A stretch of 64,000 bases of DNA from Sphingomonas sp. Leaf34. GTDB taxonomy: Bacteria > Pseudomonadota > Alphaproteobacteria > Sphingomonadales > Sphingomonadaceae. The notes under the pieces were generated by a model. That model made no database searches and was not told the DNA's origin. It worked only from the letters and a program-made list of their open reading frames with translations. Positions 11,513 through 16,699 of the stretch are shown piece by piece (positions within the stretch are counted from its first letter, which is position 1; every line of letters begins with the position of its first letter). The stretch spans positions 310,001 through 374,000 of the forward strand of contig NZ_LMLC01000002.1 in assembly GCF_001421805.1 (NCBI RefSeq), given 5' to 3'. The position numbers and the translations under genes were made by a program.

Positions 11513-12969
11513 TGCTGCAGGGGACCGGCTCCGACGTCGGCAAATCGGTGCTCGTTGCGGGTCTGTGCCGCGCGTTCGCCAATCGCGGGCTGTCGGTGCG
11601 CCCGTTCAAGCCGCAGAACATGTCGAACAACGCCGCCGTCACCGCCGACGGTGGCGAGATCGGCCGCGCGCAGGCGACTCAGGCGATCGCCTGTCGCGTC
11701 GCGCCCAGCGTCGACATGAACCCGGTCCTGCTCAAGCCGCAGGGCGACCGCACGTCGCAACTCATCGTCCGCGGCCAGGTGCGCGGCACGCTCGCCGCCG
11801 CGCGTTGGCGCGAGGGGCGCGACGGGTTGCTGGTCGACGTGCTCGACAGCTTCGAACGGCTGTCGGTCGGCTGCGACCTTGTCGTTGTCGAAGGCGCTGG
11901 CAGTCCGGCCGAAATCAACCTGCGCGCGGGCGACATCGCCAACATGGGCTTCGCGCGCGCCGCCGACGTCCCCGTGATCCTGGTCGGCGATATCGACCGC
12001 GGCGGCGTGATCGCGGCGGTCGTCGGCACCCGCGCGGTGATCGACCCCGCCGACGCGGCGATGATCCACGGCTTCCTGATCAACAAGTTCCGCGGCGATC
12101 CCGCGCTGTTCGACGACGGCTACCGCGCGATCGAGACGCGGAGCGGATGGCGCGGCTACGGCGTCGTGCCGTGGCTCGCCGACGCGGTGCGGCTGCCCAG
12201 CGAGGATGCGGTGATCCTCGAACGCCCCGCCGCCAGTGCGCACAGCCGTATCACGATCGCCTGCCCGATCACGCCGCGGATCGCCAATTTCGACGACCTC
12301 GACCCGCTTCGGCTGGAGCCCGGCGTCGCGCTGGTGATGGTGCCGCCCGGCACGCCGATCCCCGACGCCGACATGATCGTGCTCGCCGGGTCGAAGGCAA
12401 CGATTCCCGATCTCGCCTTCGTCCGCGCGCAAGGCTGGGACATCGACATCCGCGCGCATCATCGCCGCGGCAAGCCGGTGCTGGGGCTCTGCGGCGGCTA
12501 TCAGATGCTCGGCCGCAGCATCGCCGACCCCGATGGGATCGAGGGCCCGGCGTGCCGGGTCGAGGGGCTCGGCCTGCTCGACGTCGACACGGTCCTCACC
12601 GGGCGCAAGACGCTCGACCGGGTCTCCGGCCAGGCGCAGGGCGCGGCCTTTGACGGGTATGAGATGCACATGGGCGTGACGACCGGCCCGGCGACCGCCC
12701 GCCCCGTCGGTCACCGCGCCGACGGCAGCGCGGAGGGCGCGACGAGTGCGGACGGGCTCGTGTCGGGCAGCTATGTCCACGGCCTGCTCGCGCTCGCCGA
12801 GCAACGCGCCGCGTGGCTGGCCCGGCTCGGCGTCGCGGCAAGCGGCCCCGATCACGGCGCGTCGATCGACGCCGCGCTCGACGCGATCGCCGCCACGCTC
12901 GAACGTCACGTCGATCTCGACGCGCTGCTTGCGTTAGGCGATAGCGCCGGCCACCACGATCGCGACTAA
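11500..12969 (+). CDS. cobQ: Cobyric acid synthase (glutamine-hydrolysing)
   Basis: Amidates four carboxyls of adenosylcobyrinic acid a,c-diamide using glutamine and ATP. 489 aa from the ATG at 11500, which has a GGAGG site just upstream. The N-terminal synthetase domain shows [20 protein letters not shown] (P-loop), [12 protein letters not shown] and [13 protein letters not shown]. The C-terminal class I glutaminase-like domain has [13 protein letters not shown] with the nucleophile Cys331, and YEMHMG and SGSYVHGLL near the end. The last 36 bp overlap the 3' end of cobS on the other strand. The enzyme needs an adenosylated substrate, which fits cobO being in the same cluster. Confidence 0.95.
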
Positions 12970-13653
12970 CAGCCCCGTCTCGACGATCTCGATCCCAGCC
13001 CCATGCGCATCGCCGGTCACGCCGCCCAGCGTCCGCCGTAACCATGCCGCAACGCCGAGCACGAGCACCGGCAGCACGACGAGCGCGGGCACTGCCACCG
13101 CCGCGAGCGCGAGCATCAGCGCCCATCCGAGCAGGTCGCGGTTGCGCACCGCGCCAGCCACCGCCGCGCCAAGGCCGCCGGCCCGCAGCGGCGGCAAGAG
13201 CCTCGCCCAGACGAGCGGGCCCATCCGTGCCGCGAACGGTACGAGCACCAACGCCCACCAGCCCGCCAGCCCCGCAACGTGCAACAGCACGAGCTTGGCG
13301 ATCATCTGGCCCGCGATCGCGACGACGCCGAAGCTGCCGATATGCGGATCGGCCATGACCGCGAGCAGCCGCGTCCGATCGCCATGCGCCGCGCCGAGCC
13401 CGTCCGCCAGGTCGGCGAGCCCGTCGAGATGCAGCGCCCCCGTCACCGCGATCCACGCCAGCAGCGCGGCACACGCGCCGGTCCACGGGTCAACTTGCGC
13501 GCCGAGCCAGCCTGCCAGCGCGACGAGCACGCCGATCGCGAGCCCGACCAGCGGGTAGACCCGGATCGCCGCGGCGAAATCATCCGCCTCCATTGCCAAG
13601 CGCGGCATCGGCAGCCGGGTCAGGAAACCGAACGCGACGATCAGCCGCGTCAT
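12934..13653 (-). CDS. cobS: Adenosylcobinamide-GDP ribazoletransferase (cobalamin synthase)
   Basis: Membrane enzyme that joins AdoCbi-GDP with alpha-ribazole (phosphate) in the last step of lower-ligand assembly. 239 aa from the ATG at 13653, beginning [16 protein letters not shown]. The conserved [20 protein letters not shown] and [16 protein letters not shown] motifs, rich in metal-binding Asp, are present, with five or six hydrophobic segments after them ([20 protein letters not shown] and the final [16 protein letters not shown]). The start overlaps the cobC stop by 4 bp (ATGA). Its 3' end overlaps that of cobQ tail to tail. Confidence 0.93.
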
Positions 13654-14219
13654 GTCGCCAGCCCGACGATCTGCACGGTCCGCGTCAGTCCCGGCCACAC
13701 CCGGAGCGACACCAGCGCGGCATAGGGCAGGTCGAACGCCCAGATCTGCCGAGAATCGAACCCGCAAAGGTCTGCAAGAGCGGCCCGGATCGCACCGCCA
13801 TGCGTCACGACCAGCGTCGGGACCGGCGGCATCGCCGCCAGCGCGGACGCGACACGATCGTGCAGCGAAGACCAGCGTTCGCCCCCCGGCGGCGGCGCAG
13901 CGTCCGGATCGTCATAAAAGGCGCCCAGCGCAGCGGGATCGATCACCGCCGGCGCCAACCCGTCCCACGCGCCAAAATCAAGCTCGCGCCAGCGTGGATT
14001 CACCGCGACCGGGAGACCGCGCGGGCCAGCGACCGCCTCCGCGCAGGCCCGCGCGCGGATCAGGTCGGACGCCTCGATCCGCGCGACGTCGAGCCCGTCG
14101 GCGCGCGCGACGCAGGCGGCGATCCCCGCTTCGGTCGCCGGATCGTCGGTCCGCCCGAGCAATCGCCCCGTCACCGCGGGCGCACCATGCCGCATCAGAT
14201 ACAGCATGTACGCGCTCAC
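13650..14219 (-). CDS. cobC: Histidine phosphatase, probable alpha-ribazole phosphatase
   Basis: Histidine-phosphatase-superfamily enzyme of 189 aa, with the phospho-acceptor motif YLMRHGAPAV at residues 7-16 and the second catalytic histidine in LVVTHGGAIRAAL. In the Salmonella scheme CobC removes phosphate from alpha-ribazole-5'-phosphate or from adenosylcobalamin phosphate. The specific role is inferred from position: the GTG start overlaps the cobT stop (GTGA) and its stop overlaps the cobS start (ATGA), between the two genes whose product and substrate it would link. An ATG at 14207 is an alternative start; RHG proteins as a class have many substrates. Confidence 0.85.
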   Translation of the reverse strand: MSAYMLYLMRHGAPAVTGRLLGRTDDPATEAGIAACVARADGLDVARIEASDLIRARACAEAVAGPRGLPVAVNPRWRELDFGAWDGLAPAVIDPAALGAFYDDPDAAPPPGGERWSSLHDRVASALAAMPPVPTLVVTHGGAIRAALADLCGFDSRQIWAFDLPYAALVSLRVWPGLTRTVQIVGLAT

Positions 14220-15229
14220 GCTGCCGAGACGCCCGCCTCGGCGAACGTCGCCATCTCGGCATGCGTGGCCAGCGCCGCCCGGACGAGCAGCGTCGCGGTC
14301 GCCGCACCGCTCGCCTCACCCAGCCGCATCCCCATTGACAGCAACGGCTCGAGTTCGATCCGCTCGAGCAACGCGCGGTGACCCGGCTCGGCCGAAACAT
14401 GTCCGGCCAGGCAGTGCGCGACGATGTCGGGGCATGCAGCCGCCAATGGCGCGATCGCCGCGCAACAGATGAACCCGTCGAGCATCACCGGGACGCCCGC
14501 CAGCCGCGCCGCGACCACCGCGCCAGCGATCGCCGCCAATTCGCGTCCGCCAAGCCGCCGCAGAATCTCGAACGGCGTGGTCAGCGCGTCGCGGTGCAGC
14601 GCGAACCCGGCCTCGACGACCGCGATCTTGCGCGCGATCCCGTCGCCATCGACCCCGGTGCCAGGTCCCACCCAGTCACTTGCCGATCCGCCGAAGCTCG
14701 CCAGACACAATGCCGCCGCGCTCGTCGTATTGCCGATCCCCATCTCGCCCAGCACGATCAGGTTCGGCGCATCCGCGACCGCCGCGGCGCCCGCGTTGAT
14801 CGCGGCCAGGCATTCCTCCTCGCTCATCGCCGGCGCCTGCGTGAAATCCGCGGTCGGCCGATCAAGGTCGAGCGGCACGATCTTGAGGTCGAGCCCCGCG
14901 GCGTGCGACAGCGCGTTGATCGCCGCGCCGCCGGCCTCGAAATTGGCCACCATCTGCGCTGTGACCGAGGCTGGAAACGCGCTCACGCCGCGCGCGACGA
15001 CGCCGTGATTGCCCGCGAACACGACCGCGCTGCCGCGATCGAGCCGGGGCAGCGGGTTGCCCTGCCAGCCCGCCATGAACACCGCGATATCCTCCAGCCG
15101 CCCGAGCGACCCCGGTGGCTTGGTCAGCTCGCCTTGTCGCGCCACCGCCGCGGATCGCGCCGCAGCGTCGGCCTGCGGCAACCCGCGCAAGGCCGCCAGA
15201 AACGCGGCAGGCGTCGCAAACGCCGTCAT
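14216..15229 (-). CDS. cobT: Nicotinate-nucleotide--dimethylbenzimidazole phosphoribosyltransferase
   Basis: Activates the lower-ligand base by forming alpha-ribazole-5'-phosphate from nicotinate mononucleotide. 337 aa from the ATG at 15229. CobT signatures in order are LTKPPGSLGRLEDIAVFMAG, VVFAGNHGVVARGVSAFP, the LGEMGIGNTTSAAALC glycine-rich loop, GPGTGVDGDGIARK and the SAEPGHRALLERI and LEPLLSMGMRLGEASGA segments, the latter ending at the catalytic Glu. It is coupled by ATGA to DUF1636 upstream and by GTGA to cobC downstream and lies in the riboswitch-controlled transcription unit. Confidence 0.95.
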   Translation of the reverse strand: MTAFATPAAFLAALRGLPQADAAARSAAVARQGELTKPPGSLGRLEDIAVFMAGWQGNPLPRLDRGSAVVFAGNHGVVARGVSAFPASVTAQMVANFEAGGAAINALSHAAGLDLKIVPLDLDRPTADFTQAPAMSEEECLAAINAGAAAVADAPNLIVLGEMGIGNTTSAAALCLASFGGSASDWVGPGTGVDGDGIARKIAVVEAGFALHRDALTTPFEILRRLGGRELAAIAGAVVAARLAGVPVMLDGFICCAAIAPLAAACPDIVAHCLAGHVSAEPGHRALLERIELEPLLSMGMRLGEASGAATATLLVRAALATHAEMATFAEAGVSAA

Positions 15230-15633
15230 TCCACGAGGAACCCGGCGGGCGGGGTGCGCGTGATGAAATGCCCCTTCACGCCCTGCGGCCATTGCTTGAA
15301 CGGCACCTGACCGAACGCGCTCTCGCCGTAGAGCTTGGCGTAATCGAGGATCGCGCGCGCTGCGTCCTCGCAGGGCTCGAACCGGCCAAGGACATAGCCG
15401 ACCTTGGCGGGCGCGCGCAGGTGGATCGTGCAGAAATCCTGGCACGCGAACAGGCACGGCATCTCCTGCACCGCGACGTCGGCATAGGCCGGGTCGCTCG
15501 CCTGCACCGCTTTCAGCGCGCTGGCGAGCCGTGCCCCACCGCGCTGCCCCTCGGCATCGTCGCGCGCGTCGGCGGAATGGCGGCAGGTGGTGCACGCGAC
15601 GACCGCGACGCCGTCATCGACCGGCTTCAACAT
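15226..15633 (-). CDS. DUF1636 family cysteine-rich metal-binding-like protein
   Basis: A 135-aa protein with an early CTTC-x-H pattern (VVACTTCRHSADARD, Cys14 and Cys17) and a second cluster EMPCLFACQDFCTIHLRAP with three cysteines, arranged like a thioredoxin-like ferredoxin. This matches DUF1636, a family known for being found next to cobalamin biosynthesis genes and annotated as metal-binding. It is the first full gene downstream of the cobalamin riboswitch and is coupled to cobT (ATGA). A redox or cobalt-handling role fits the context but is inferred. The ATG at 15633 overlaps the end of a 17-codon ORF. Confidence 0.83.
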   Translation of the reverse strand: MLKPVDDGVAVVACTTCRHSADARDDAEGQRGGARLASALKAVQASDPAYADVAVQEMPCLFACQDFCTIHLRAPAKVGYVLGRFEPCEDAARAILDYAKLYGESAFGQVPFKQWPQGVKGHFITRTPPAGFLVE

Positions 15634-15680
15634 GCGGAGGCCCGGGCGTGCGGATACGAAAAACGATAAAATACAGGCAT
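15627..15680 (-). CDS. Short ORF (17 codons) overlapping the start of the DUF1636 gene
   Basis: The ATG at 15680 is preceded by an AAGGGG element at proper spacing and encodes MPVFYRFSYPHARASAC; its TGA (15627-15629) lies inside the first two codons of the DUF1636 gene. The overlap means ribosomes finishing the short peptide could restart on DUF1636. It lies after the riboswitch, in the zone where the expression platform is expected. Whether the peptide is made or merely marks the real ribosome-binding site is open. Confidence 0.4.
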   Translation of the reverse strand: MPVFYRFSYPHARASAC

Positions 15681-15711
15681 GGTGACCCCTTCGGACAGTC
15701 GATCCCGCCCC

Positions 15712-15749
15712 GCGCGAGGGCTAAAGGCGCACGCCTCCAGCCTCCGCGC
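15712..15749 (-). promoter_or_regulatory. GC-rich hairpin between riboswitch and first gene
   Basis: On the minus strand, GCGCG at one end pairs with CGCGC at the other; inside, GAGGCT faces AGCCCTC and a GGC/GCC pair closes the loop. There is no run of T after it, so it is not an obvious intrinsic terminator. Its place, between the aptamer and the first start codon, suits a translational expression platform or attenuator. The folding was judged by eye. Confidence 0.35.
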
Positions 15750-15824
15750 AACGCGAAGCGATGTCGTCGCTCGGGGTAGTACCCGTCCGTTCGGCGCACC
15801 CTGGCCGGACGAAAGACGACCGCG

Positions 15825-15987
15825 ACGGGCAGGTCTCCTGGCTCGCGGGTCAACGCCGTCCGCGCCGCCTTCTCGGGACGATCCCAATGGCATGAGGCAC
15901 GGTGGCTCGCCGCGTACAGTTGCAGGGGCAGCCGGGTGTTTCCCGTTCCCATTTTCATCCCCCTCGGCGCTAGCGTCGGGGGAACCT
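15825..15987 (-). ncRNA. Cobalamin (AdoCbl) riboswitch
   Basis: Read on the minus strand, the element starts with AGGTTCCCCC and GGGGGATGAAAATGGGAA, passes through GGCTGCCCCTGCAACTGTA (the B12-box core; its complement lies at 15915-15923) and GCGAGCCACC, and ends with AGCCAGGAGACCTGCC (15828-15843), the usual 3' closing strand of Cbl riboswitches. Order and spacing match the class. It lies about 190 nt upstream of the DUF1636 start and should repress the DUF1636-cobT-cobC-cobS unit when adenosylcobalamin is abundant. cobO lies on the same strand upstream of the aptamer and is probably not controlled by it. Confidence 0.92.
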
Positions 15988-16099
15988 GTCGCAGGACGAG
16001 CGATACGCGGGCGGACGAGGGGACGCAAGACACGGGCAAGTGCGTTCCGCGCGCTCCCCCGCAACCCGTCGCCTTCCGTTATCCGTGTCGGCCGCGCCG

Positions 16100-16699
16100 C
16101 TAAAACTCCACGCCCAACTGCGCCTTCACGCCCGACCGGAACGGATGCTTCACCTGCGTCATGTCCGTCACCAGATCCGCGACCTCGATCACCGCCTCGG
16201 GCGCGTTCCGCCCGGTGATGACGACATGCGTCATCTCAGGCTTCGCCGCCAACGCCGCGAGAACCTCGTCGACCGGCAGATAGTCATAGCGCAACACGAT
16301 GTTGAGCTCGTCGGCGACCACCATCGCATAGGACGGATCAGCGATCATCCGCTTGACCTCGTCCCACGCCTCCCGCGCCACCGCGATGTCGCGGGCGCGG
16401 TCCTGCGTGTCCCAGGTGAACCCCTCGCCCATCGGCTTGAATTCGCACAGCGCGGGGAACGCGTCGAAGACCGCCTTCTCGCCGGTCGCCATCGCGCCCT
16501 TGACGAACTGGACGACGCCGACTTTCCGCCCATGCCCGATCATCCGCACCGCCATGCCGAACGCGGCGGTCGACTTGCCCTTGCCCTTGCCGGTGTGGAC
16601 GATGATCAGCCCCTTCTCGATCGTCTTGGTCGCGACGATCCGGTCATGGACCTCCTTGCGCTTGGCGCTCTTGGCATTCTGCTCGTCATCGGTCGGCAT
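16100..16699 (-). CDS. cobO: Cob(I)yrinic acid a,c-diamide adenosyltransferase
   Basis: CobA/CobO/BtuR-type ATP:corrinoid adenosyltransferase, 199 aa, that places the adenosyl group on Co(I). Starts at ATG 16699 with the polar N-terminus MPTDDEQNAKSAKRKEVHDR; then come the P-loop LIIVHTGKGKGKSTAAFGMA and VVQFVKGAMATGE, the adenine-side FTWDTQDRARD, and the Walker-B-like VVADELNIVLRYDYL. The closing PFRSGVKAQLGVEF is typical. A very long open frame continues upstream in this reading frame but is antisense to the FAD gene. It is divergent from that gene, with 60 bp between starts. Confidence 0.95.
   Translation of the reverse strand: MPTDDEQNAKSAKRKEVHDRIVATKTIEKGLIIVHTGKGKGKSTAAFGMAVRMIGHGRKVGVVQFVKGAMATGEKAVFDAFPALCEFKPMGEGFTWDTQDRARDIAVAREAWDEVKRMIADPSYAMVVADELNIVLRYDYLPVDEVLAALAAKPEMTHVVITGRNAPEAVIEVADLVTDMTQVKHPFRSGVKAQLGVEF

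Follow-up and report, generated by a model that had tools for sequence, protein, structure and literature searches.

The closest described precedent for the leader studied here is that of ppe2 in Mycobacterium tuberculosis, in which a B12 riboswitch precedes a short upstream ORF (uORF; uPPE2) whose Shine-Dalgarno (SD) site is occluded in the structure predicted for the bound form (PMC11260477). As described in that report, ppe2 heads a cob-related operon, has no SD before it and shares an AUGA overlap with the uORF; reporter expression was lost without the uORF start or SD, the products were mostly separate, and the mode of expression was termination-reinitiation (PMC11260477). The B12-switch leader of M. 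tuberculosis metE likewise holds a short ORF, but one reported to lie inside the aptamer and to repress (PMC11260477), whereas the ORF described below follows the platform and would be expected to be needed. The CruR uORF of Bordetella resembles it in controlling a metal-related operon from upstream, yet CruR is reported to sense copper through conserved peptide motifs and to act via Rho (PMC9426467), unlike the present ORF. Bicistronic designs also use a short first cistron to hand ribosomes to a gene, but these are man-made (PMC5995908, PMC11602170). No title in the literature that we searched, in which coverage of subscription papers was thin, concerned a riboswitch-uORF relay in sphingomonads. 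DUF1636, the family of the first gene of our operon, was named in two papers in that search and has been modelled as a thioredoxin-like ferredoxin (PMC4520260).

We examined a cobalamin operon leader in Sphingomonas sp. Leaf34 within the window, i.e., the whole 64,000-nt stretch of DNA that was analysed. The order on the minus strand is aptamer, a platform of 130 nt, a 17-codon ORF and DUF1636 (Table 1). As in ppe2, an SD-led short ORF follows the aptamer out of frame with the next gene, its stop overlaps the start of that gene, and the B12 switch may mask its SD. A main gene without a clear SD, also part of the ppe2 layout, was found in the window (-2.5 kcal/mol) and in L007 (-2.2 kcal/mol; sequence identical to L036 of S. 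aurantiaca), while the other leaders mostly had about -4 kcal/mol. The systems differ in that the ppe2 aptamer is, according to its authors, a compact class IIb variant (PMC11260477), whereas ours is a full-length RF00174 with a long platform. The ppe2 overlap is AUGA (4 nt) with the relay shown by reporters (PMC11260477), whereas here it is AUGYUGA (7 nt) or UGAUG in several lineages and the relay is predicted. We regard the Leaf34 leader as probably a further case of the ppe2-type relay and not a new mechanism.

Table 1. Features of the riboswitch leader and the operon in the window
Feature	Position	Strand	Basis
Cobalamin riboswitch aptamer	15811..16004	-	RF00174, full length; 1 of 5 in the Leaf34 genome
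Hairpin directly 3' of P1, CGUCCG:CGGACG	15784..15811	-	Read from sequence
Possible antisequestor, GUCGUC 15820-15815 with GACGAC 15768-15763	15763..15820	-	Constrained fold; putative
Candidate anti-start GGUA 15783-15780 and anti-SD ACCCC 15777-15773	15773..15783	-	Consensus fold
Long hairpin joining anti-SD and SD	15692..15770	-	Consensus fold
Shine-Dalgarno AAGGGG of short ORF	15686..15691	-	Anti-SD pairing energy
Short upstream ORF, 17 codons, ATG start	15627..15680	-	Start, frame and stop conserved (23/23 leaders)
DUF1636 gene, start within last ORF codons (ATGTTGA)	15226..15633	-	PF07845, 114.2 bits
cobT-like gene, ATGA overlap with DUF1636	14216..15229	-	PF02277
Histidine phosphatase, cobC-like, GTGA overlap with cobT	13650..14219	-	PF00300
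cobS, probable ATG at 13653, ATGA overlap with cobC-like gene	12934..13653	-	PF02654

By sequence and structure score the leader RNA is a cobalamin riboswitch (RF00174; 109.7 bits against a curated cut-off of 31.5, E = 1.4e-26, model positions 1-189 complete), predicted to bind a cobamide. A sequence-only reading of this locus had recognized the aptamer, though it placed the upstream edge at 15987, short of the true start, and the distance to the DUF1636 ATG at about 190 nt; the aptamer ends 177 nt before that ATG. The same reading was right about the strong hairpin without a T tract and about the 17-codon ORF with an AAGGGG site: a consensus scan of 15560-16150 found no terminator-like site and no promoter-like site, and the TGA of the ORF lies inside the ATGTTGA that starts DUF1636, giving an overlap of 7 nt. 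A cobA/cobO adenosyltransferase gene (PF02572; 16100-16699, minus strand) ends just upstream of the riboswitch, so that the riboswitch sits between two same-strand cobalamin genes. The hairpin directly after P1, which is probably P13/L13, was invariant across the 23 leaders of the window's clade in all but one loop column.

The ORF would encode the peptide MPVFYRFSYPHARASAC followed by a stop. Its SD had a pairing energy of -8.1 kcal/mol with the long anti-SD, compared with -2.5 at the DUF1636 start. With the short anti-SD the energy was -5.7, the best of the five starts of the region (the others being -2.5, -3.2, -5.3 and -3.4). The names cobT and cobC-like are our reading of the Pfam matches PF02277 and PF00300.

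The start, frame and stop of the ORF were conserved throughout the window clade, which comprised 23 distinct leaders from close Sphingomonas genomes (S. aurantiaca, S. faeni and others). The ORF started at -41 (or -47) and its stop ended at +7 in 23/23 leaders, and the frame was retained in the two leaders (the window and L036) that carried 6 extra nt. L043 fell under the SD threshold of our first ORF scan and was found in the alignment of frames and stops. Interior stops over the 23 leaders numbered 0 in the ORF frame and 6 and 12 in the other frames. Permutation of alignment columns gave no in-frame stop in 4.1% of cases (P = 0.041), or 8.3% (P = 0.083) for the variable part alone, so that avoidance of in-frame stops is borderline. 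A second SD-start pair in the same 23 leaders, with a strong SD and lying within the hairpin (near -94 to -99), was in frame in 3, without a start in 3, ended elsewhere or stayed open in 17, and ended at +7 in none; with a fate that varies so much between leaders it is probably no gene. The peptide itself was not conserved: all 21 equal-length ORFs had different peptides, variable columns were equally spread over codon positions 1, 2 and 3 (10, 10 and 9 of 14 each), and the first half of the ORF ranked with the most variable stretches of the leader. The claim that the riboswitch governs a short leader peptide thus found support for the ORF and for masking of its SD in folds with P1 formed, and none for a role of the peptide, and the ORF is better called a translated spacer, its translation being predicted.

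Conservation across genomes is needed for the argument, since the overlap by itself is weak evidence. Given the start and SD, a stop on the gene start was expected in ~28% of shuffled leaders, because ATG-YTG-A always contains TGA in that frame. The overlap in the window alone is within chance, and its conservation across genomes raises it above chance. We therefore rejected the overlap as proof by itself, at a chance of ~0.28 per leader and with 13/39 control leaders scoring when GTG starts were allowed.

Beyond the window clade, 161 DUF1636 loci, many of them two copies of one place, gave 46 distinct leaders with a B12 box within 700 nt upstream, and 40 were kept after dropping six with a loose box (L126, L157, L152, L162, L163 and L084). 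RF00174 scored above the cut-off in 19 of the 20 DUF1636 loci scanned; the exception, L114, had been added for comparison and had no RF00174 match despite an overlapping short ORF. The stop of this ORF (ATG CCG ...) falls on the DUF1636 start in L150 as well as in L114, where it lies just upstream of 3001. An upstream short ORF that terminates at the DUF1636 start was present in 38/40 leaders. These represent five or six lineages and comprise 23 leaders of the window clade, 10 of an echinoides-like clade, L059 (Sphingobium), L088 (Novosphingobium), L122, and L131 with L135, the last two with an overlap of the type UGAUG. The sequence-only reading had pointed to related genomes as the place to look, and the start, frame and stop recurred in four or five lineages beyond the window clade. 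The echinoides-like clade had two competing upstream starts, and in some members one of the two was in frame. In L123 and L124 of that clade the sequence at the first start is ATG CCC CGA TGA, with a further ATG overlapping this stop, which would make two chained mini-ORFs before DUF1636.

In a protein tree the overlap lineages fell in separate places among switch-less genes, with many weak forks, and L122 and L131/L135 share much leader sequence and may be one lineage. In shuffles that preserved only the start and SD, it would be expected in 0.036-0.31 of leaders. The overlap was found in six of the eight switch-led lineages (P = 0.0035; 0.020 with a flat chance of 1/3), or in five of seven with L122 merged into L131/L135 (P = 0.010-0.023; 0.045 with the flat chance of 1/3). 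The statistical evidence is thus moderate, with P from about 0.003 to 0.045 by lineage counting.

Ordinary translational B12 switches of Sphingomonas (btuB-like, metE-like and cobW-like by their translations) have the same aptamer and a similar leader length and served as controls. We took 40 regions from the best-scoring aptamers listed, not at random, of which L169 lacked an exact box, leaving 39. Under an ATG-only rule the overlap was present in 36/40 DUF1636 leaders and 1/39 controls; with GTG also allowed the counts were 38/40 and 13/39, the controls being at about chance level. The other four B12 switches of Leaf34, before genes that are btuB-like, cobalt transporter-like, cobW-like and TonB receptor-like by translation, head genes with direct starts. 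Two of these switches (L003 at C2:424486 and L004 at C2:422971) lie 1.5 kb apart, one before the cobalt/nickel transporter-like gene and the next before the cobW-like gene. Several btuB-type leaders of the genus (L168, L173, L175, L177, L178 and L203) had a GTG-led frame of 22-25 codons (VSD..) with ATGA on the start of the long gene, and in L167 and L197 a similar GTG continues in frame into the gene; the overall rate of GTG-led overlap frames in control leaders was near chance.

RNA folding supported masking of the ORF ribosome site, with less certainty about the masking strand. In the consensus fold of the 23 leaders, ACCCC (15777-15773) pairs with the SD GGGGU (15689-15685) and GGUA (15783-15780) with UGCC of the start region (15679-15676), both at the foot of the long hairpin. 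The anti-start pairs were retained in 23/23 leaders and the anti-SD pairs in 22-23/23, and pairing of GGUA with UGCC would account for the fixed second codon. The long hairpin had 98.0% of cells paired and no two-sided changes. When the platform was folded without the aptamer, SD-ACCCC pairing appeared in 7/7 window-clade leaders folded, at ~0.6 to 1.0 per base. With P1 formed, the SD was masked in 23/23 folds, and freeing it cost 2.1-10.6 kcal/mol. ACCCC was the SD partner in 3/23 unconstrained folds and in 0/23 with P1 enforced, where the SD paired elsewhere in the platform; it served in 22/23 folds only when P1 and the next hairpin were both enforced. The folding comparison that the sequence-only reading had proposed agreed with masking where P1 is formed; ACCCC as the masking strand in all folds was not borne out and depends on the hairpin after P1. 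An antisequestor fold with a free SD was about equal in energy to the P1 fold with a freed SD. The masking pairs did not covary: pair counts in the 23 leaders gave 1 two-sided change against 0.5 in shuffles, and exchange of arms between lineages showed no preference for the cognate arm, with 566/720 permutations as good.

The aptamer, the conservation of the ORF, the overlaps and the predicted masking of the SD are the direct evidence from which we infer a relay, including the identity of the masking strand, the response to ligand, translation of the ORF, re-initiation and the chain of genes. In this model B12 masks the best initiation site of the operon, that of the short ORF, and DUF1636 is read by termination-reinitiation, to which we assign a probability of about 0.55. 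The riboswitch would be an OFF switch at the level of translation, directed at the ribosome site of the short ORF and not at that of DUF1636. In the form bound by adenosylcobalamin, P1 and the next hairpin would be present; at the base of the long hairpin ACCCC would pair with the SD GGGGU, and GGUA with the UG of AUG and the CC of codon 2. Without ligand, the 3' flank of P1 would pair with GACGAC, ACCCC would fold back locally and the SD would open. Ribosomes would then read the short ORF, of no fixed sequence, stop at the TGA within ATGYTGA and re-initiate on the adjoining DUF1636 ATG with its poor SD. Translation of cobT, the cobC-like gene and cobS would follow through 4-nt overlaps, and with such successive overlaps one controlled initiation may feed the whole chain.

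The leading alternative, which we consider rather unlikely, is direct initiation of DUF1636 at its own ATG, the SD being weak or lacking; the riboswitch would then gate the whole region and the short ORF would be incidental. Alphaproteobacteria often start genes without an SD. Most of the 21 leaders other than the window and L036 have a weak GGGA-type site (mostly about -4 kcal/mol) ahead of DUF1636, L125 begins DUF1636 directly at an upstream site of the same kind as that of the ORF (ATGCC), and L153 has a strong SD of its own (-10.7). The ATGYTGA stop moreover comes free with Met-Leu and a codon beginning with A. For loci outside the sphingomonads, 30 DUF1636 loci, the window's own among them, were taken from a search of 385 genomes of the class, and ten of the others had a B12-box match near the gene (a pattern match, so that the aptamer is putative). 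Nine of the ten had an in-frame direct start by our reading, often with a weak SD, the start of the tenth, L229, being ambiguous; L207 and L208 also have an SD-led frame, beginning with GTG or TTG, whose end lies ~10 nt after the DUF1636 start. Of the 63 DUF1636 genes lacking a box within 330 nt, 39 lie behind a stop-to-stop frame of 60 codons or more whose end is at -5 to +8, which suggests that the gene may tend to overlap its upstream neighbour.

Against a direct start, the frame and stop were kept in 23/23 leaders despite the highly variable first half of the ORF, and the weak site is absent from the window and L036/L007. Where present, it forms the loop of a 5-bp hairpin (GUCCG-GGAA-CGGAC) that immediately precedes the DUF1636 start in most of the 21, with 93.9% of cells paired over 23 rows, although in the consensus fold this CGUCCG pairs with an upstream CGGACG and not within this small hairpin. 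The DUF1636 site was poorer than that of the ORF in 22/23 leaders (mean -4.1 against -8.1 kcal/mol); it was at least as strong in L043, L131 and L077 (the last for the -26 start). That reading had named an unconserved ORF combined with a conserved ribosome site of DUF1636 as the finding that would count against it. Neither was seen in the window and L036, and the second half was seen, as the weak GGGA-type site, in most of the other 21 leaders.

It is improbable that the short ORF mainly keeps ribosomes on the RNA and so prevents Rho termination before DUF1636, with re-initiation secondary. The leader is long, GC-rich and without an intrinsic terminator, Rho was also considered for ppe2 (PMC11260477), and the Bordetella uORF is reported to work via Rho (PMC9426467). 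This explanation leaves unaccounted for the recurrence, across five or six lineages, of a stop placed at the start codon, and moving the ppe2 stop past the start cut expression, which its authors held against Rho (PMC11260477). A true leader peptide that senses something by stalling or attenuation is highly improbable. In its favour, the C-terminal part (IVRERTC) recurs with little change in most ORFs of the equal-length set of 21. Against it, that part differs in the window and L036 and is explained as well by RNA pairing, the peptides vary freely as given above, and the leader has no conserved peptide, codon run or intrinsic terminator of the kind expected of an attenuator.

Returning to the relay, we tentatively consider a broader interpretation, which is possible but doubtful, namely that sphingomonads have repeatedly placed a natural bicistronic adapter between the switch and DUF1636. 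The riboswitch would have to fix the masked start sequence (SD and AUGCC), hence a disposable cistron of 7-17 codons and free sequence, which would shield the coding sequence from the switch and whose overlapping stop would start the four-gene chain; lineages could also switch to a direct start, as in L125.

If the relay is true, the riboswitch-uORF-reinitiation arrangement of one mycobacterial gene would extend to a second phylum, where it would occur in several lineages and serve a cobalamin synthesis operon, the peptide being free and the start and stop fixed. It would then be a general layout to seek wherever the first gene after a riboswitch seems to be without a ribosome site.
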